A DNA stretch of 20,222 nucleotides from contig NW_003155237.1 in the NCBI RefSeq assembly GCF_000003605.2, forward strand, positions 722,538 through 742,759. Reading direction: 5' to 3'. Position numbers and translations under genes: made by a program. Below, piece by piece: positions 9,036 to 20,151 of this stretch; position 1 is the stretch's first letter, and each line of letters opens with the position of its first letter. The notes beneath the pieces were generated by a model, which saw only the letters and a list, made by a program, of their open reading frames with translations, made no database searches and was not told the DNA's origin. This stretch comes from Saccoglossus kowalevskii. Taxonomy: Eukaryota > Hemichordata > Enteropneusta > Harrimaniidae.

Positions 9036-9353
9036 TCAATCTATTTCCAGTTCATCTCGAGAAGGCAGCAAAGAGAGGGTTCTGTTTTCTAACTCAAAGG
9101 CCAAGTTGCTGTCATGGTTACTATCGTGCGGAACATTGCGCAGTGATGCCGCAAGGTCTCGCTCATGCGATCTAGGCAAATCGTGGCTGTACTGGTCGGA
9201 TGATGTTGTCAATATTGTGAAAGTTGGCGGATAGCGGAGACCACAAGAAAGTGCATGCGACTGTAGGTAGAATTTTAAACGTTCCCTTTCTTCCTTGAGT
9301 GTGTCAATTTGTTCCAGCAATCCCTGTTTTTCCTCCTGTAATTTATCTGCTTC
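9036..9353 (-). CDS. ATF3/Fos-like bZIP factor, leucine zipper and C-terminal exon 3
   Basis: This last coding exon (105 codons plus TGA at 9038-9036) follows an acceptor TTTTCTCTCCAG|GAAGCAG. With the end of exon 2 it completes a leucine zipper. Counting from the second Leu of VLLEE, leucines fall at heptad positions 2, 9, 16, 23 and 30, and His at 37. The spacing matches ATF3 and Fos without gaps, as does the His-x3-Cys just after the zipper (HALSC here, HRPTC in ATF3). The segment LKEERERLKFYL resembles the Fos zipper end, so the family call lies between ATF3/JDP2 and Fos. The 65-residue tail after the zipper is rich in Ser, Asp and Leu with no domain I know. The zipper mediates dimerisation with Jun, ATF or Fos-type partners. 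It is the 3' part of the same minus-strand gene, followed by an AU-rich 3' UTR. Confidence 0.9.
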   Translation of the reverse strand, partial: EADKLQEEKQGLLEQIDTLKEERERLKFYLQSHALSCGLRYPPTFTILTTSSDQYSHDLPRSHERDLAASLRNVPHDSNHDSNLAFELENRTLSLLPSRDELEID

Positions 9354-11864
9354 CTGGAGAGAAAACAACAGCAAACAGTTATGAACATGTATACTACACG
9401 ACTTTTTTTTTTAAACGCCCTTTAGCGGCGAGGCTTTGCCAAACAAACTCTGATTTCATACAGCATGAATATAGGGGTTGTTTCCTGTCTGTTGGCTAGG
9501 AGGGGACTGAGTGATTGGCTACAGTGTTTTACCAGTACTGTCAATCTTTAATCCGATTTATCAGGTAAACCCGACTGTAGTTAACCAAATAACTAATAAT
9601 AGTCGCAACTTCCTCTATATAAACGTAATTAGTTTACCCTAATTATTCTCGTTTATTGGAATATCATATTTTAGGCCAATATTTGACACCTAATACTGAA
9701 TGGTTGCAGGGAAATGTAACATTAATCCCAGTATTTTCAGAGTTAAGATTTACTGTCATAATTGAAGAGTTTGTTGACGAGAGCGAGGCTGTGATATATG
9801 CAAATTTGCGCGCGACAAATAAACTGCATCTATGAGAATAACGCATGTTCTTCTGAGTCACGGTCTGGATTTTAGTTTTAACAATTACAAAATGATATTG
9901 TTTTCCAGAGTGAATGTGGAATTGATGACTACCCAAATGTTTATATTTACATACAAATATATTACTTTGGGGGCTTATTTATTGTTTTTAACACGACATT
10001 TAGAATTTATATTACTCTAATTGGAAGTACACTTTAAACAATTGATTGGTTGAATGAAAATATCAATCATCTGAAGATCGCATTTGCCAGTGGAATTCCT
10101 TGCGTGCACTTATGACGTCACACAGTGTGTCACGGCCGTTGCGTACATCTGATTAGATAATGAGATGTCACGTGCAATGTAATGTATCAAAGTAGAGCGA
10201 ATGACTCTGTCCCCATTCAGACTAACGACAGGATATTACGTTAAAAGGGACAAAACTTGGTCTACTTTCTTTATTTTTTCAAGCCATTATTTAATCAATC
10301 CTACTATCCCACACGTGGTACAGCCACGAAGCTAAAAAGTGCTTAGTCCCACGGTACAGCTGTCGGGGTATACGGCAAAGCCATGGATCACACTGTCGCT
10401 GGTACCTATCATCGTTGCAAGGAAATACTACTAGTACACGCACTAGATACTCGTGGCGCTTGACATCGAGTTGTGTTTAAGGGGATGAATATTTTTTGTG
10501 AGTAAGAACATGTATACGCCTACGGTCTTTGTATAGGCAGGAGAGACGCTAAATAAATTAAAAAATGCGCCATTTCAGATTAACCATGCTTCGTGGTTAT
10601 CGATATTAATTATTGATGGACATGAGTGTTCCGTGTGTAATCAAGGGTGGGCGGATTGACGTACGGAATGGTATCAAATACAATCATCTTGGGTGTTGTT
10701 TCTTTGGGAATCTCCGGTAGGAATGCTCAGATGTGTATACCCATGTCGTTTATAGAGTAATATTTTGTAATCTGCAAGGGGTAATTTCGAGGGTAATAAT
10801 TTATTTTATTTTTTTTCGTCAGTGGGCGCTTTTCGGTGATAAAAAGCGGGAAGTAGCATATGAAATCACTCAGTGATATAAACAAGTCGATCAATATTTT
10901 TATTAGAATTATTTTACTTTACTTCGTTTGCTGCATTTCAAATTACTCCCATACGGCCATAACCCACCAAATCAACACCGCCGAAATTGATAACCATGGA
11001 CCAAAGGCACAAACATCGTCAGCTGACTACTAGCGTTCTAAAAATAGTATATCATTGTGGTAAACAGAATCACATGGTACACGGCACGTTATGAGTCATG
11101 TCATTGAAATGTACAAGCCATTGTGCTGTTCAAATAACGCCCCCATGCGACAGTATAGCAAAACAGCCACCTACATGTATCTAAATTTAGCACCGTGGGA
11201 TTGCCCGAAGTCCTTTCGAATTGAAACGCTCTTTGTTTTTGCACATTATAGAGGGTTCGGCTAAAGTGTTTTAGTATACCCGTTAACAGATGCAGCTAGC
11301 TACAGTGACTCGAGCAAGAAAAGTACCGATGGTACGGAAATCAGAACAAAAATCTTCAAGTTGACACCCACACACTACCATTGAAAAGCACCACCTTAAA
11401 CTGAATTATCGCAGTGTTTGATTAAATTGGTGTCAAAATGAAAGTGTTATTCAATAACTTTGATTGTAAAGAGAGAATAACAACATACGCGCAGCTGATT
11501 GAAACATATGGTGAAGCACTAGACATTCAGGGCATTTTGTTTTTCGCAAACAGAGCCGTGGGTTCAGAGTTCGTCGTTGCATCAGCAGTGACTCATAGTC
11601 CCAGCACATGTTGGTTGCCTCGATACGTCAATGTAGCCTTATCGTCGAACCCCAAAAAAACCCAGATCTATGGTTTTTTGAACGTATTGATGTTTGCAGT
11701 GGGACTAATTGTAGGTATACAGAGATATTTCTGAGTACGTGACGGCTACTCACTATGTTTGCCAAAGATATCAATGGAATCAAACAGATGATATCACCGA
11801 ATACATATCCGGTACTTAGAACGGTGTTATGGCAGTAAAATATTTATTATCGTGCAAGTCTCAC
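9354..11864 (-). other. Intron between exons 2 and 3 (2511 nt)
   Basis: GT-AG intron on the minus strand, phase 0, donor GTGAGA and acceptor TTTTCTCTCCAG. Open frames inside it, including a 98-codon plus-strand one at 11438-11734, show no recognisable protein. It contains a perfect CRE (TGACGTCA) at 10113-10120. No repeat or RNA gene was recognised. Confidence 0.8.
10113..10120. promoter_or_regulatory. Perfect palindromic CRE in the intron
   Basis: TGACGTCA, the full cAMP-response element bound by CREB/ATF dimers, sits in the intron between exons 2 and 3. Whether it is used is unknown. Confidence 0.4.
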
Positions 11865-11972
11865 CTCTTCCAGTAAAACTTCCCTCTCTTTCTTCTTCTT
11901 GCGGCATTTCTCAGCAGCTTTTCTGTTCTTTTCTCGCCTCTGCCTCACGCGATCTCTCTCCTCTGGAGTCAA
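11865..11972 (-). CDS. ATF3/Fos-like bZIP factor, basic (DNA-binding) region exon 2
   Basis: This 108-nt exon of exactly 36 codons is bounded by an acceptor with a strong pyrimidine tract (TTTTCTTCTTGTTCGCAG) and a donor, GAAGAG|GTGAGA. Both ends are phase 0. It encodes the bZIP basic region: LTPEERDRVR, then QRREKNRKAAEKCR, then KKKKEREVLLEE. The DNA-contacting pattern N-x2-AA-x2-C-R of Fos, Jun and ATF3 is intact. Most Fos/ATF3 members have Ala at the position before KCR and a shorter lysine run, so AAEKCRKKKK is somewhat divergent. A short 108-nt basic-region exon is also what I recall for vertebrate fos-family genes, which supports common ancestry of the gene structure. The product should bind AP-1 or CRE sites in the nucleus as a dimer. 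Confidence 0.92.
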
Positions 11973-12061
11973 CTGCGAACAAGAAGAAAACAGTGAGATT
12001 TGACATGTTATGTCTCTCATATCGTTGCAATAAATCTTGAAATCAAGAGCGCGGTTAATAC

Positions 12062-12247
12062 CTCTTCTGGTTCTAAGACATTTTGCCAGTTTGGTGCGAT
12101 TAACGCAGGTGTGTTAGCATTGTCGTCGTCCATCACGGTTCCCAAATCGTATCTGGCAATCTTTTTCCTTGGCTCCTTCATATCATCATCAACTGATGAC
12201 GTGAGACCAACCACCCCAAAGTCAGAACTATACCGTTGTTGTTTCAT
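12062..12247 (-). CDS. ATF3/Fos-like bZIP factor, proximal alternative first coding exon (1b)
   Basis: This exon encodes 62 residues starting MKQQRYSSDF, with A at -3 of the ATG. It ends GAA-GAG|GTATTA in phase 0, only 89 nt before the basic-region exon. Its sequence is acidic in the middle (SSVDDD, MDDDN) with a basic patch (EPRKKIAR) and ends NVLEPEE, running directly into LTPEERDR of exon 2. That junction resembles the acidic TPEEE stretch just before the basic region in Fos proteins. I recognise no named domain. Promoter-like elements lie 50-180 nt upstream, so I treat it as an alternative first exon giving a 203-residue isoform. The alternative is an internal exon: a CCACAG lies just before the ATG and would read through in frame, but its pyrimidine tract is poor. 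Its open frame continues past the donor, as expected for an ordinary splice site. Confidence 0.75.
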
Positions 12248-12296
12248 CGTAGTCTGTGGAATCCCTTACGACGGAGCACTACTGAACCGGTCACGA

Positions 12297-12429
12297 GTGT
12301 ATGTACCAGGGACTTGTCTCTGCTCTTATAAATACCCTCGGTCATATTATAAAGTGGGGGCGCTGTCTGTAAGTTCATTGTGTAGGCGTCAGTGTGAATG
12401 AGTCACGGCCGCTGCTAAGCTATATATGG
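12297..12429 (-). promoter_or_regulatory. Candidate proximal promoter of exon 1b (CArG-like, AP-1, TGACG, TATA)
   Basis: Read 5' to 3' on the minus strand: CCATATATAG at 12429-12420, one base from a CArG/serum-response box, with a GGAA Ets core 10 nt upstream; a perfect AP-1 site (TGACTCA) at 12405-12399; a TGACG half-site at 12391-12387; TTTATAAT at about 12353-12346; and TATTTATA at 12334-12327. The ATG of exon 1b follows 80 nt after the second TATA box. The set and order recall the c-fos promoter (SRE, adjacent AP-1-like site, CRE, TATA). It suggests serum or stress induction and autoregulation by the encoded AP-1-class protein. The motifs are seen directly; their use is inferred. Confidence 0.55.
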
Positions 12430-13160
12430 CTTGTTTTTCCCGAGACCCGGCCCCGGTGTACCCACGCAAAGGGTCGTAGTAGTACATGTGTATTAGGGGG
12501 TTAGCACGTGCTGTTCTAGCTACGTTAACTGCTGTATTTCCAGCCGCCTACTCTGAACCAGTGGGAGGGACATATTATACGCTCGTCACGAAAAGCAGTG
12601 GACTCTATCTGTAGTTAGAAACCCAATTATTATAACACTGCTTTCGTTTCCATTGTGGTTAGAGGCCGGATATTATTTCACGCCATCTAAGATTTAGGTA
12701 TAATACCGTGGATGGAATACATCTAATATGGAATTCTAAGCCTCGGGTATTTTCCACATACAGGAACAACGAACCAGCGCACACAATAGTGAGTTCGAAT
12801 CACAAGAGACTTTCACTCCAATGTGGCACGTTGCGATTTCATCAGCCAGGGTATGTCCCGGTCTCCACTGACGACGAGTTCGACCTCGACAAACATCCAG
12901 GCCTCATGACACGGTCACTGAATCACAACCGTGTTTCTTCGTAGTCATGTAGTACATATTGTCGCTAAAGGCGGATTGATTTTAAAGTTTCGCTTTTCGC
13001 AATACTTTGAAATCACGAAGAGGAAGGTGTTTTGGCGAACACGAAAGATCTGGTGACGAATAGACACTATTGCAGTTTACTTATAATAAATATCAAGCTA
13101 TATAACATAGCTACGGATATATCAATAGAATATCAACAGTGGGCTTAATATAATAGTCTG

Positions 13161-13187
13161 TAATAATAATAATAATAATAATAATAC
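13161..13187. repeat. (TAA)n microsatellite
   Basis: About eight to nine uninterrupted TAA units inside repeat copy 1. Confidence 0.85.
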
Positions 13188-13891
13188 ATTTGCTAATTGA
13201 AATTACCTTTTCCTTTTTATCCTAACGTTAATGTTTATGCCAAATGAAACACAAATTCATGAAAAAACAAGTATTCTCCATCTAAGTAATTTTGTTATTT
13301 TTAGGGTATTCTTGTTAGCAAACAAAAAGCTAAAAAATCACCCGTTAACAGTTCCCCTACGTACGATTATAACTTTTATCTATATTGGGACATTACTCAC
13401 ATGGACTTTAAAAAGATGTATTCTCGTGTTATATTAATATCGAGTGATATATCGCAATTTGGGCTCTACTGGAATAATCATTTATTTTAATGAACAGCCC
13501 GAAGATGATCATTGTCGAATTGCATGCCTCAAAATGGAACTCTTAGCCTCCGGGATTTTTGCTTCATATACAATAGTGAATTATAAACAAAACTGAATGA
13601 AATCAAGATGACTTTCACGAGTCAGACGGCGAATTAATCGGCTAGGGAATTCCCCGGTCTCTGCAGAAAACCATCAGGATGGAGATACACTCTTATTCAT
13701 ACAAATCAGTAAAGAAATGTATCAATTTGAAATACCGTATTAAAAAATAAACAAATTTTTCAGATTACAAAACCACAAAACCAATAAAAAGTGACAATAA
13801 GATTAAGTAGATTATATCACTTTCACTTTACCATACAAGACAAAATCACTAACCAACAGACATCATACGAACTCATTAGAGTTATGGTAGA

Positions 13892-14024
13892 TTAAAGGGC
13901 GGCAGTCGTCGTGCCGCGTCCTCTTCGATATGGGACTCATAGCGACGTATACAACGCGTGTAAAATACATTGTTTATTTACATAAAATTCGAACACGCGC
14001 TGCGCGACGACCACCGCGCTTTAA
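13892..14024. mobile_element. 125-bp MITE with TTAA target-site duplication
   Basis: TTAA at 13892-13895 and at 14021-14024 flank a 125-bp segment with GC-rich inverted ends. The left end reads AGGGCGGCAGTCGTCGTGCC and the complement of the right end reads AGCGCGGTGGTCGTCGCGCA, about 15 of 20 positions matching. An inner inverted pair, CGCGTG and CACGCG, is also present. The related repeat copy 4 (about 15240-15285) lacks this segment, so it is an insertion into copy 2. The TTAA duplication suggests piggyBac-type mobilisation, although the ends do not begin with the usual piggyBac CCC. It has no coding capacity. Confidence 0.7.
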
Positions 14025-16722
14025 AATGTAAAGTTAATTAAAATATCTAGCTGTAATTGTCGTGTTTATGTTCATTTGTTGAAGGTAAAGTATCAGATAT
14101 ATATGTTTTACTTTCTCTGGTATAAGCGTTTAGTTTTATTTTCGGCAACTTGCAAACATGCTTTTACAGATAGGTGGAATTATAAGTTATAACTCTGTGT
14201 AAAACCACGTGTTTTCAATACCGTGCATGTAATATATAAATGCAATGGCCTCGGATACTTTCACCGCGGGATCACAAACCTGCACACACAATAGCGAATT
14301 GTAAACACAAGTGACTTTCACGTCACTTTCGATTTCATCATCTAGGGTATGTCCCTGTTTCCATGACGACGGGGTTGACGCTATTACATATTCAAATCCC
14401 ATCGCAGTTGCAATGCAATTGGGGCATATTGTCGTTAGTGGTGATCTTATTTTAAAGCTTCGCGTTTCGCAATACTTGAAATCAAGAAGTGACGGATGTT
14501 TATAAGAATCACAAGCACTAGTAATCAGGTGACAATTATAAGACTATGTTTCAGTTTGAAATGACAATATCCTGATAGTCTGACGTAAGTGAGCCATATA
14601 TACCCGGGGAGAACCAGGCAAACACCGATTCATGATAAAAAAAAACAAAAAACACTCCACCCAAGTAATTGTGGTACTTTTTAGGGATTCACATCTCCCA
14701 CACAGCACTTTAACAGCCTCATATGATGGTAGTCATGTGTATATTTGTGAAATGTTACTGATGTGCACGTTAAAAGTGACACATTCAGTGTTTTGCGACG
14801 TCTAGATTGAATAACACATAATTGTATAGCATAAACCTATTATATATCAACTGTATACTTTTATAGAAAATTCGTTTTTAATTTGTGTTTGTTTTATATC
14901 GATCAATCAGGACAATGGGTTAATATACGTATATGGGACGTTTTATTTCTACCACACCTTCAACGCGTAAAGGAAACCCTTTAGCCTTGGCGATTTCCGC
15001 TGCACACAATCAGGCAAACCCTTTGTAAAATACAATGAATTATGAAAAAAACTCAAGGTGACTTTCACGCAGCGTTGTTATCGGGTGTGGGGGTGGGGTG
15101 GTGCCCCGGTCTGCGGAGGTCTGTGGACATACCTAATTTACATTATTATGCATACAAATCATTCGACAGAAAATGAACACATTATTACAGATGAAGAAAC
15201 GGTTAATGACTAGATTATACAAAACAGAAACACTAACCAACCTACATTACACCAAATATATAACTATAAGCGTGCTTGAAATATCTAGTTGTTATTTTCT
15301 TTTTTTTTGGTTTTCATTTGTTAGGGGTATTGTATTGTATTTATTACATTATTCGAAATATGCGTTCAATTTTAATTTATGTTCGTCAACCTGCAGACAT
15401 ACTTTGGTGGATGGTCAAACCTTACGTTAACACGTGTTTAAACCCATCGTTTTATTTAGTATCGTGCCTCAAAAGCATTCTAACACATTTTGAGATATTA
15501 TCACACGTCACTGCCGCGTCGAACCCCATATAACAAATGATTTTCACTCGTGCTCCGAATTTATCATCTACTATCTTTCCCAGTTCCCAAGAAGACGTGA
15601 TTGAAAATCAGGTCATTAGATGGTGAATAAATCTTCAATTGCCATACGACCTCATGGTAGTGTCGTTTCTTTTTTCGCAATACTCCAAACTTGAGAGAAG
15701 ATACAGGTGCCGCTATCATGTACACTAGTAATTTAACTATTAGACGATTTTGCAATTTGAAAGGGCCATTTCCCGATAAACTGCATAGTAGGCAAACACC
15801 GATCCATGAAAAATAAATATCTGCTACCTAATTATGATTGGTACATTTAGGTGATTCTCGATCACCGTCACTTCAAAAAAAAGCACCCTTTAACCTCTAC
15901 AGTACTCACTTTGTTTGAATACCTGAATGTAGGACATCCCGTTTGAGTCACAGAAGTCATATACCACTTATCAACTTAGCCGTGGATTTCACAGAAGAAA
16001 TATATTTTTTTATATTAGGCCAAACACATATTACAATGTCATCAACGTGCATGGAAAGCTATGGTATGCTTCCCTCTTGAAATAACTATGATTGTACACC
16101 GTTGTGCTCCCACGAGAAAGACATCATTTATATATGCATGCCACCTCATGCCCTAGTTGTCATGGACACGGAGTGTCTTGCAGCCCGATCGCCAGAGCAA
16201 CCCCAACCCTTAAACAAGAAAAATCAAATATATTCCAAATATATTTATATATTCCAACTTCGTCCTCATTAGCTTTAGTGGAGGACTATATGCACATGTT
16301 TACCCCAACAAACAAACATTGCATTTATTATAAGCAATGAGCTCCTCGGTTTGCTAAAACTGCATGTCGACTTAGAAAAAATGTGCATGCACATTGTTGA
16401 TTATTTTACTGATTTGTTCTGAATTACAAGTTCTTGAGCCAACAAATATGTGTGTGTTTTGATGAGTAACTACTCATCTATGTGCCTGAAACAGTGTGCT
16501 TCTACAAGTCACCGTGAATACCGTGAATTTTCCGTGTATTCACCAAACAGATTTTGAAGGAAACTCCTGAAGAGGAAGATTGTCACCACACGGGAATACA
16601 CACTCACATGAGAATGAATAAAATTCCCAAGTGACTTTCACTCGTGTAATATTACACCATGATCATGGGTATGCCCCATGTTTCCATTGACGACGAGTTT
16701 GACCCGTACGCAAATGTAGGTC

Positions 16723-16751
16723 TCATTCACTCATTCACTCACTCACTCACT
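16723..16751. repeat. (CACT/CATT)n short tandem repeat
   Basis: Seven tetramers of TCAT or TCAC type following the GGTATGCCCC landmark in repeat copy 6. Confidence 0.75.
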
Positions 16752-17010
16752 GGTCACATACATGTAATGCAGTCTAGTGATTATTGTTGGATACGGCATT
16801 TTAAAGTTTCGTTACAGCAAATGCTTAAAACGCTGGTGGCAACCGTGCATGTAGTCCGGCGCGGGGCTAACACACTCGGGCGTAAAGTAATTTGAGGCAA
16901 ACAAAACATGTTTGGGAAATAAAAACACATCACCCACCAAAGAAATTTTATGTTTTTTAGGGGATTCTAGTCCTCCAACGCCCATTTTAAAGATTAAATC
17001 GTGAGCATGA

Positions 17011-18019
17011 TGTTGAAATTTCCCCACCTCTGACTGGCCACTCCGTCGCCCACAACATGAAGATCCTTTCTTCCTGGCAGCCGACATTGAATCCCCAAGT
17101 CGTGTCTCTGTTTTCCGCTAGAATATAATTCCCCCACCTATCCCCAGTAAGTATTGACCTTCATTGTCGATGTACGGCCGCGAGTTGCAGTCCACTGAAA
17201 ACTCAAACTGCGTCACAAATAAAACGTATTCAGTCCTGACTGGCTCAACATACGTACGTACGACGGATCACTATTATCATGTTGACAACCCCATAGGTAG
17301 TTTCGCTTTCGTTAACTCGAACAACCAATAAAAACACACTTCAATTATCGTTATACATGTTACAAGAGTCATGATTTGGCGCGTAATTTGGATATACGCG
17401 TGCTTGTTAGTCTTTTGAAGATTGTGACCTTTGTCACCCCTTTTCCAGGAATAAACGCTGTCATAAAGTACGTTCCACGAACTACATCTTTTAAAGTAGA
17501 CACTTAAAAATATACGATGCTGTTTTAAATCGGTTTGCTCTGTGTTCATCGTTAGTCGTTAGGACTGTCCGCCATATTGTGCCGATCACATGTTTTCACC
17601 TTAGACGCCAATGAGGAAGTATTAGCGCTAATATTATCGAACGCTAAATGTGCTGAATTTGTTTGGACTTTGCCATTGGGGTCAAACATTTGAAATTATG
17701 GGCCATGGCCGAAAGAGTGTGACAGGCGCAATTTTTTTGTCCCAGTTTCTTGTCTGTAAATATGAGCTTTCTTGATTTTTTCCTGCAACTGTTTGTACAA
17801 CACCTTTAATATGCATTTATTCTCTCGGTGTCCAGCTTGCAATTGGTCGACCTCTTATCAATTAGTTATGTTGGTCATATGAACATTTCTGTCATGATTT
17901 AACAAATAGAGCTTTAACAAAATAGCATTAGCATTGAAATAGTTTTAAATATGAGTTGAGCGTGTCGTGATTTAAATTGTGTGTGGAGTATCTTTAAGTT
18001 TGCGTAGCTTGGTACAATG
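17011..18019. other. Intronic stretch, no gene recognised
   Basis: Part of the intron after exon 1a. It holds a YY1-like CCGCCATATTG at about 17570 but no gene, and open frames of at most 91 codons with no recognisable content. Confidence 0.5.
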
Positions 18020-18212
18020 CAAGTTGATGTATTAAAGTTGGATGTCGTGTAATTAAAATCTATTTAAATTTGAAAGCGTGTGTTGTGTGTTGCAAGTTGG
18101 GTATGATGTAACTTAATGTGTGTACAGACTTATTTGAGTGATTTAATTAGTTGAATGTCACAGTGGTGTAATTAAAGCTAGATATGGTGTAATGAAAGTT
18201 GAAAATGTATGG
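18020..18212. repeat. Degenerate minisatellite, unit about 21 bp
   Basis: At least four variants of GTTGGATATGGTGTAATTAA follow one another or are spaced by short gaps: GTTGGATGTCGTGTAATTAA (about 18036), GTTGGGTATGATGTAACTTA (about 18096), GTTGAATGTCACAGTGGTGT (about 18151), and CTAGATATGGTGTAATGAAA (about 18179). It lies in the long intron about 170-360 nt downstream of exon 1a on the transcribed strand. Confidence 0.55.
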
Positions 18213-18214
<2 letters not shown>

Positions 18215-18250
<36 letters not shown>

Positions 18251-18252
18251 TG
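18215..18252. repeat. (TA)n microsatellite
   Basis: Near-perfect TA repeat of about 38 bp with one C interruption near the right end. Confidence 0.9.
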
Positions 18253-18383
18253 TTTATACTTAGATATATGATATTTTTAAAAGACAAGATGTATAAATAT
18301 CACATCTCTTGTACATTGTACAAGATTCGGTGAAATTGACTATTGCTTCGCAACCAAATAGAGGAAATAATTTCAAAACTTAC

Positions 18384-18596
18384 TTCAACGCATTTGCTCC
18401 TTTGTTCATGTACATTTAATTCCGGTAGTCCCAATGCGCATCTCTTCGACCGTATTTTGTTCCGTATCTCTTCTTTTAAAAATGCTGTTAATTTGATCGG
18501 TTCTCCTAGATGGTCATAGTTCGTCGTCACCGAGTTGGTGACTACGCACGATACCATGGAATAGCTTCCAAAGCCAGTCTTGGTATCTGAGTCCAT
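18384..18596 (-). CDS. ATF3/Fos-like bZIP factor, distal first coding exon (1a)
   Basis: This exon encodes 71 residues starting at an ATG whose complement ends at 18596. It ends at a consensus donor, GAA|GTAAGT, with the intron GT at 18383-18382, in phase 0. Residues 36-45 read KLTAFLKEEI, followed by a basic stretch. This resembles the N-terminal LTPFVKEELR motif of vertebrate ATF3, and the LKEE core also fits a SUMO-acceptor consensus (psi-K-x-E). It is therefore inferred to be the N-terminal regulatory segment of the bZIP factor encoded further left by exons 2 and 3. Spliced to them it gives 212 residues, against about 181 for human ATF3. Upstream, a possible acceptor (ATTACAG) lies 10 nt before the ATG and a TATAAGTA-like motif lies at about 18667-18674, so the true 5' end is unresolved: either a promoter close by or a separate non-coding exon further right. 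The N-terminal match is short, so the link to this gene rests on the motif, the strand, the order and the compatible phase. Confidence 0.75.
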
Positions 18597-19891
18597 TGTA
18601 AACTACTGTAATACCACAGTTATTTTTTTTCTGTTTATGAACATGTTGAAAATGAAACTAGTTACTTATACACGGCAGAAACAAATAAATACATATATAA
18701 TAACAGTATGACTGTTCATGGCTTTGGCACATTATTCCTCCATATTCACACTGTGCGCATTGGCATATATCACTATAAAGTTGACACATTACGTAATTCA
18801 TGTGTTGAGAGAAACCAAATGTGATGCAATGTTTGACATATGCCCTTATAGAGCAAATACTCCGAAAACACGCTCGAGTTTGTGTTACGTTTTTTGAAAA
18901 CGCTTAACACTAAATTCATTGAGTGTATATCGCTAAACACATTCATGTTCCTAACAATATATGAGAACACATACAAAAACGTAGGGGTATGAATTAACCT
19001 GTAAAACGCACCGTACCCTCACACCACTACTAAACGTATTTGTATGATATATAGTAGATAATATTTGGTAATCGTTGTCCTAGAAAAACTATTCGAAATA
19101 GCTAGACGTTTCGAGCAATGGCACTTCATCGATAGCATAGAAGAAAATGTAAAACGTATAACATAAAAACACGCTCAACAGCCATAAAATGGAATCAGCG
19201 TACTTAACGTATAGCGGGTTTCTGCTTGCCGTTGCAACTCGAATGTGTCCTTGAAGGATTTGGCAAGGCAATATTCAAGTTCGGGATAAATGACCAAGTA
19301 TTTCATATCCATCTGTTATTTATACTCTGGGCGTGCCTATTTTAGTGATAATTGACAGAAATACCAGGAATTGTAATTGTTTTCTGTCCGTATGGGAAAC
19401 TCCCAATTTTTCAGCCAATTGCAATCACTATCACTTAGTAAAATTTATGTATGGGGTGTGTATGTGTGGGTACCGCCGATATGGTGAGGATTTGGGACAG
19501 GGTGTTAGTTGTCTCTATCTTTTTCAGTAATACTATTGTTTCCATACGAAGAATTTTTTCTAAATTCACATTTTATTGGCGTTAATGGAAAGTTTATTCA
19601 ATAAATACATTCAGGCCAAGGTTAAATTCCTAGAAGCGATAAACGATTAGTTCTGCATAGAAAAATTTGGGAAATCAGGAAAACCCCCACGTTCTGCCAT
19701 GTTATGAATTCAGCCCAATTGTCATCACTGCCAAGTATTGATAATCAACCCACGTGTTTTGTGCTATGATCGCTCAAGATAAATTGTGTATCGGGACAAA
19801 TGGTTCACTGCTATCTAGAAAATAATTTGCATTTATGTGAATATCAATAAGACAATTTTTAATGTTATCATAGTTATCCTCGGGGGCGAGG
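18597..19891. other. Upstream flank of exon 1a, no coding gene recognised
   Basis: Short open frames only. It may contain a 5' UTR, an intron, or the promoter of exon 1a. A TATAAGTA-like motif lies near 18667-18674 on the minus strand. Confidence 0.4.
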
Positions 19892-20151
19892 TTACGTCAC
19901 AGACGTTCCACGTTGCTAAGACGCGCATCACTGTACGTGCATTTCTATGGGCTCTGTGCGCGATGCTGTGGAACGCCGGTCGAGCTGGTGAAAATTCGAG
20001 AAAACAATAGAGACATTAAGATGCGCATACGAGAACGGAACGAGAACGGATACGTCACTGCTTTGTGCTTGACCTCCGCGCGAACCAATGACGTCATCGG
20101 TTGCCTGGTCGTTCGGCAGTCGTTTTGAACGTGATCAAGGTGACTGACTCG
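19892..20151. promoter_or_regulatory. CRE/CCAAT-rich block, candidate distal promoter or enhancer
   Basis: Within 260 bp there is TTACGTCA (19892-19899), a TGACGTA-type CRE variant (minus strand, around 20050-20057), a perfect TGACGTCA (20089-20096) immediately beside CCAAT (20085-20089), and TGACTGACTC (20141-20150), which is AP-1-like. The block is visibly richer in G, C and CpG than its surroundings. It lies 1.3-1.55 kb upstream of exon 1a, so it could be the distal promoter of the minus-strand bZIP gene with a 5' non-coding exon. It could equally be the promoter of an unseen gene to the right. I saw no convincing TATA box or donor site to settle this. Confidence 0.5.

Follow-up and report, generated by a model that had tools for sequence, protein, structure and literature searches.

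Can a single gene of the Fos/ATF3 group place two different N-termini on one bZIP, and on which side of that group does such a gene stand? This question is raised by a gene, here called gene B, on the minus strand of a 20,222-nucleotide stretch of the 572-Mb genome of the hemichordate Saccoglossus kowalevskii (contig NW_003155237.1, or C4441 below, positions 722538–742759; "the window" means this whole stretch). We consider it fairly probable that gene B is a tandem-duplicated gene of the ATF3/JDP2 type in a same-strand row of Fos/ATF3 genes, with two promoters that would give two N-termini on one bZIP. Its four exons are the predicted first coding exons 1a and 1b, exon 2 with the basic region, and exon 3 with the leucine zipper (Table 1). 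The coordinates, phases, and GT/AG dinucleotides of all four agree with the sequence, and every joint is in phase 0, which confirms the claim of the original prediction that both first exons are compatible with exon 2. The introns measure 6411 nucleotides (nt) between exons 1a and 2, 89 nt between exons 1b and 2, and 2511 nt between exons 2 and 3. From either start the protein is open, with 212 amino acids (aa) in the 1a form and 203 aa in the 1b form. For the Pfam family bZIP_1 (PF00170), whose cut-off is 27.6 bits, the two forms scored 38.6 and 38.3 bits, respectively. Among solved structures, the top matches of the 1b form were BACH1 (37.3 bits) and c-FOS (36.5 bits).

Exon 1a is taken here, from sequence likeness, to encode an ATF3-type N-terminus. 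It matched the first exon of gene C, another member of the row, at 789205–789303 (54.5% over 33 aa, E 1.9e-5), and this was its sole other match with E < 0.1 in 140 kb of the contig, 66 kb of which reads N. Gene F, on contig C2442, was matched in its first exon at E 0.001 (in 40 kb). The scores against genes C and F were each reached in 0 of 2000 shuffles, and that against the N-terminus of human ATF3, with the motif LTPFVKEEL, in 4 of 2000. Exon 1a, whose ATF3-like motif LTAFLKEEI had been pointed out earlier, thus matches the first exons of two paralogues in this genome and, more weakly, human ATF3. The codon-usage score of exon 1a was 0.067 bits per codon, a value reached by 0.62% of 649 open non-coding stretches. 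Such null stretches were of equal length, overlapping, and taken from the window; the codon-usage reference was drawn from six bZIP-matching open frames (1793 codons), a set that may inflate exons 2 and 3 above the N-termini. A scan of 85,358 readable bases for ATG-to-donor candidates (45–130 codons, donor agreeing with the consensus at 5 or more of 9 positions) yielded 76 candidates, and exon 1a ranked 12th, entered there with a shorter donor. The donors of exons 1a and 2 both agree with the consensus at 7 of 9 positions. With exon 1a alone, Pfam returned a single sub-threshold match (E 0.14). A further open frame with coding-like codon usage lies upstream of exon 1a at window positions 19931–20134 (minus strand), adjoining the N stretch at the window end.

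Exon 1b scored 0.178 bits per codon, which was reached by 0.1% of 1034 open non-coding stretches, and ranked sixth of the 76 candidates. The candidates ranked above it were a coiled-coil frame at 704 kb, exon 2 of gene B, gene C's first exon, and a pair of frames shortly upstream of Fos, presumably exons of that gene, so that most of them are exons of the gene row. A TATA-like box and, upstream of it, an AP-1-type site precede the ATG (Table 1).

Several results weigh against two alternative first exons. For exon 1a, the whole-genome search gave the gene C exon at E 0.39 and did not list gene F, and its phase-0 end is also compatible with the basic exon of gene A, which lies downstream. For exon 1b, the donor is weak, agreeing with the consensus at 5 of 9 positions, the minimum that the scan accepted. 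The TATA-like and AP-1 motifs could be due to chance; the window has five AP-1-type sites where 2.81 are expected. A genome search with exon 1b returned itself alone, and against five other N-termini its likeness was at the chance level (272 to 879 of 2000 shuffles reached the score; 659 for the human ATF3 N-terminus). Pfam gave no match to exon 1b alone at E up to 1. The acidic N-terminus, originally described as unrelated to that of exon 1a, therefore had no match in these comparisons. A JDP2-type N-terminus, suggested by a likeness seen by eye (N..A.IAP), was rejected because 272 of 2000 shuffles reached its score.

This lack of relatives, together with the weak donor, would be expected if exon 1b were no exon but a stretch that is open, with coding-like codons, by chance, and if gene B were made up of exons 1a, 2, and 3; open frames of this length are also common in the window. 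We regard this as improbable, given how rarely the codon score of exon 1b is reached even among overlapping stretches, and given its rank just below exons of the gene row. It is very unlikely that exon 1a is instead part of another gene of the row, such as gene A or D downstream, and that gene B starts at exon 1b only. The strand and the phase would allow this; no first coding exon of gene A or D was recognized among the 25 candidates listed of the 76, and positions 718720–722537 read N. However, the next basic exon downstream of exon 1a is exon 2 of gene B, 6.4 kb away, and genes B and C are sisters, the first exon of gene C being the best match of exon 1a.

Exon 1b might also be an internal cassette exon between exons 1a and 2, in which case a single protein with a longer N-terminus would be made. 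An AG 6 nt before the 1b ATG keeps the frame, and the join 1a-1b-2-3 is fully open. This is the single usable AG, because a stop codon 18 nt ahead of the ATG excludes others. As an acceptor, however, it is the poorest of 12, with 8 pyrimidines in 17 positions, whereas the other 11, which were placed by homology and of which one (below gene E) is doubtful, have 10 to 14. A TATA-like box 80 nt ahead of the ATG also argues against a cassette exon, as does the fact that no 1b-like exon was found beside gene C, in the 140 kb of the contig (66 kb of which reads N), or elsewhere in the genome, where a fast-changing one could be missed. We therefore think a cassette exon unlikely; based on the coding-like codons, the TATA-like box, and the poorest acceptor, exon 1b is more likely an alternative first exon. 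The coding score, candidate rank, acceptor, and TATA-like box thus leave two alternative first coding exons, as originally proposed, as the best reading, with the junctions 18384/11972 and 12062/11972 predicted from the sequence.

With two alternative first exons, promoters about 6 kb apart would each start a first coding exon that is spliced to one shared bZIP. The distal exon 1a would carry the older ATF3-type N-terminus, and the proximal exon 1b would carry a new acidic N-terminus with its own TATA-like box. Because the DNA-binding and dimerizing parts are identical in the two forms, both should yield dimers that bind AP-1 sites or cAMP response elements (CREs). Judging from the anatomy, the forms should differ in recruitment or partners and in the timing of their production.

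Gene B is not this genome's Fos. That gene lies at 827 kb, about 86 kb upstream of gene B on the same contig and strand, and is recognized because it matches c-FOS at 59.7 bits (36.5 bits for the 1b form of gene B), groups with FOS and kayak (80/90 in the 14-row tree described below), and ends in QNLIAL. Human Fos ends in LLAL, and the C-terminus of gene B, SRDELEID, is not of this type. In the genome, a FOS query had its best matches at 827627–827746 and 827884–827991 on C4441; the zipper exon of gene B was matched at E 0.25. The earlier view that the bZIP of gene B also looks Fos-like therefore holds as a likeness in appearance, and the much clearer Fos is this other gene.

The bZIP phylogeny proposed as a check on gene B was run with human and fly references in trees of 17, 13, and 14 rows (73 columns). 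No tree included gene D, of which the zipper only is seen; gene E was absent from the 13- and 14-row trees, and gene A was a flagged long branch. Genes B and C were sisters, with 87/91, 89/94, and 88/81 in the 17-, 13-, and 14-row trees, respectively (first value, bootstrap %). Placements with Fos and with ATF3/JDP2 were both compatible with the data. A clade of gene B with ATF3/JDP2, A, C, and F was not in the best tree and had approximately unbiased test p-values (p-AU) of 0.476 (13-row tree) and 0.186 (14-row tree). Counting against an ATF3/JDP2-type gene B, its placement with Fos had p-AU of 0.0757 (13-row) and 0.145 (14-row), and a B+C+Fos branch appeared in the best 13-row tree, weakly (45/85), with p-AU of 0.223 in the 14-row tree. 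This branch would be expected if genes B and C were Fos paralogues and not ATF3-type genes. The zipper "a" residues point the same way, AKIRL of gene B being closer to TKIKL of human FOS than to SNIKL of ATF3, and the exon start LTPEE resembles LSPEE of FOS. Gene C has TKIRL; at the second "a" position genes B and C have K, whereas genes A, D, E, F, and the worm's own Fos have N. The Asn of human ATF3/JDP2 at this position, perhaps not a defining trait, is thus absent from gene B. However, the "a" set does not track the family here, because the own Fos, with TNIKL, resembles ATF3. Given this separate clear Fos, the ATF3-type N-terminus of exon 1a, and a C-terminus that is not Fos-like, we doubt that gene B is a Fos paralogue. 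BATF is described as having Ser at position 19 of the basic region (PMC1479340); gene B has Cys at this position, as placed by alignment to FOS.

At least six Fos/ATF3-type genes (A, D, B, C, E, and Fos) lie in a row on one strand, over about 118 kb of C4441 (Table 1). Six of the seven genes assigned to the group lie in this row, the seventh being gene F on C2442, and N stretches may hide more. Weaker bZIP matches of the ATF3 query on contigs C261, C3324, and C3458 (E 0.04 to 1.6) were excluded from the count. In A, B, C, F, and Fos the basic exon measures 108 nt, and in E it spans 34 codons; a 108-nt exon with phase-0 introns on both sides is present in five of the six genes in which the basic exon is seen. 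No clear orthologue of BATF was found in the genome: the best match was a 384-codon frame on another contig (E 0.009), and the nine matches listed included Fos (E 0.33) and gene E (E 0.43). The basic region of gene E (809597–809692) has Tyr where Fos/ATF3 carry Cys and BATF carries Ser. About 270 nt below the gene E zipper, at 807650–807847, there is another open frame that resembles a zipper (EIGELQKANSALRSKL...) and may represent an additional gene or a second zipper exon.

Table 1. Gene B, its candidate promoter elements, and the other genes of the row. Exons and elements are given in window positions, and genes in C4441 positions.
Feature	Position	Strand	Description
Exon 1a	18384–18596	minus	213 nt, 71 codons; motif LTAFLKEEI; ATF3-type N-terminus (assigned by likeness); phase-0 donor GAA/GTAAGT
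Exon 1b	12062–12247	minus	186 nt, 62 codons; acidic N-terminus; phase-0 donor GAG/GTATTA
Exon 2	11865–11972	minus	108 nt; basic region; phase 0 on both sides; GTTCGCAG/TTG...GAG/GTGAGA
Exon 3	9036–9353	minus	318 nt; leucine zipper, H-x3-C end, long tail; CTCTCCAG/GAA...TGA
TATAAG	18665–18670	minus	possible TATA element of exon 1a; common motif, about 7 expected per strand in the window
TATTTATA	12327–12334	minus	candidate TATA box of exon 1b promoter; 80 nt before 1b ATG
TGACTCA	12399–12405	minus	AP-1-type site; upstream of the 1b TATA-like box
Gene A	715249–715142 and 713124 on	same as gene B	includes the basic exon
Gene D	718536 on	same as gene B	zipper only; 718720–722537 reads N, basic exon not seen
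Gene C	789387–789196, 786333–786226, 784827–784690	same as gene B	
Gene E	basic exon near 809692–809597, zipper 808121	same as gene B	
Fos	827991–827884, 827743–827357	same as gene B	upstream frames at 829 and 830.7 kb

Human ATF3 acts on its own promoter through a CRE-type site. The window contains four exact CRE sites (TGACGTCA) at positions 711–718, 1636–1643, 10113–10120, and 20089–20096, where 0.38 are expected, and 0 of 100 shuffles reached four. Exact sites also occur in other stretches, among them the surroundings of gene F outside the row, so the excess may be genome-wide. Diverged direct copies, apparently of a dispersed repeat, pair 12702–12884 with 14217–14379 (72%) and 12955–13020 with 14425–14489 (82%). 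In intron 1, the 133 bases at 13892–14024 are 97.7% identical to a stretch at about 709.9 kb of the same contig and are probably a young copy of a repeat. Neither Rfam (gathering scores) nor a tRNA scan gave any match in the window.

Among known systems, human ATF3/JDP2 resemble gene B in having a bZIP with H-x3-C after the zipper, and ATF3 also in its N-terminal motif, which is similar to that of exon 1a; unlike them, gene B has K instead of N at the second zipper "a" position, and a long tail. Human ATF3 has two promoters, and its alternative starts leave the protein largely the same, whereas in gene B the N-terminus would change. FOS-1A and FOS-1B of Caenorhabditis elegans differ at the N-terminus, and Drosophila kayak has several first exons. 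Like gene B, fos-1 and kayak give more than one protein form from one gene, but both are Fos genes, whereas gene B combines an ATF3-type N-terminus with a clear Fos as neighbour. One source states that C. elegans fos-1 encodes two isoforms (PMC3578760), and passages of another mention alternative first exons, but those of two genes other than kayak (PMC4610234). Alternative N-termini in Fos genes are already known, and gene B would add another case.

The row of Fos and ATF3-type genes is the more interesting finding. Vertebrates have a FOS-JDP2-BATF gene row, on chromosome 14 in human, in which, as here, Fos is close to ATF3/JDP2-type genes on one strand; the row described here differs in having at least six members and no clear BATF found, with one ATF3-type gene on another contig. 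In the open-licence literature, judged by titles in partly covered lists, no account of a Fos/JDP2/ATF3/BATF row was found, and in passages of PMC6370703, only a table row labelled JDP2-BATF bears on one. Because the row of gene B also contains a true Fos, it points to an origin of Fos and ATF3 from adjacent copies. The expectation that gene B would inform the ATF3/Fos split thus gains support from its neighbours, not from its own bZIP, which fits either side in the trees. More tentatively, the row could survive from the ancestral tandem array behind the split between Fos and ATF3/JDP2, in which first exons were captured or swapped between neighbours and exon 1b is a recent product of this modular layout. 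In five of the six genes with a visible basic exon, this exon measures 108 nt and has a phase-0 intron on each side, a layout that would open upstream first exons to such exchange.

In animals, Fos and ATF3 act as immediate-early and stress regulators; to our knowledge, the split between them is not settled. With a clear Fos and several ATF3-type genes in one same-strand row, an origin by tandem duplication becomes testable through gene order and intron phase across animals, and gene B illustrates how an extra N-terminus could join a fixed DNA-binding domain. If the row does descend from an ancestral array, the linkage between Fos and ATF3/JDP2 would have been kept in this invertebrate, as that between FOS and JDP2 has been in vertebrates.

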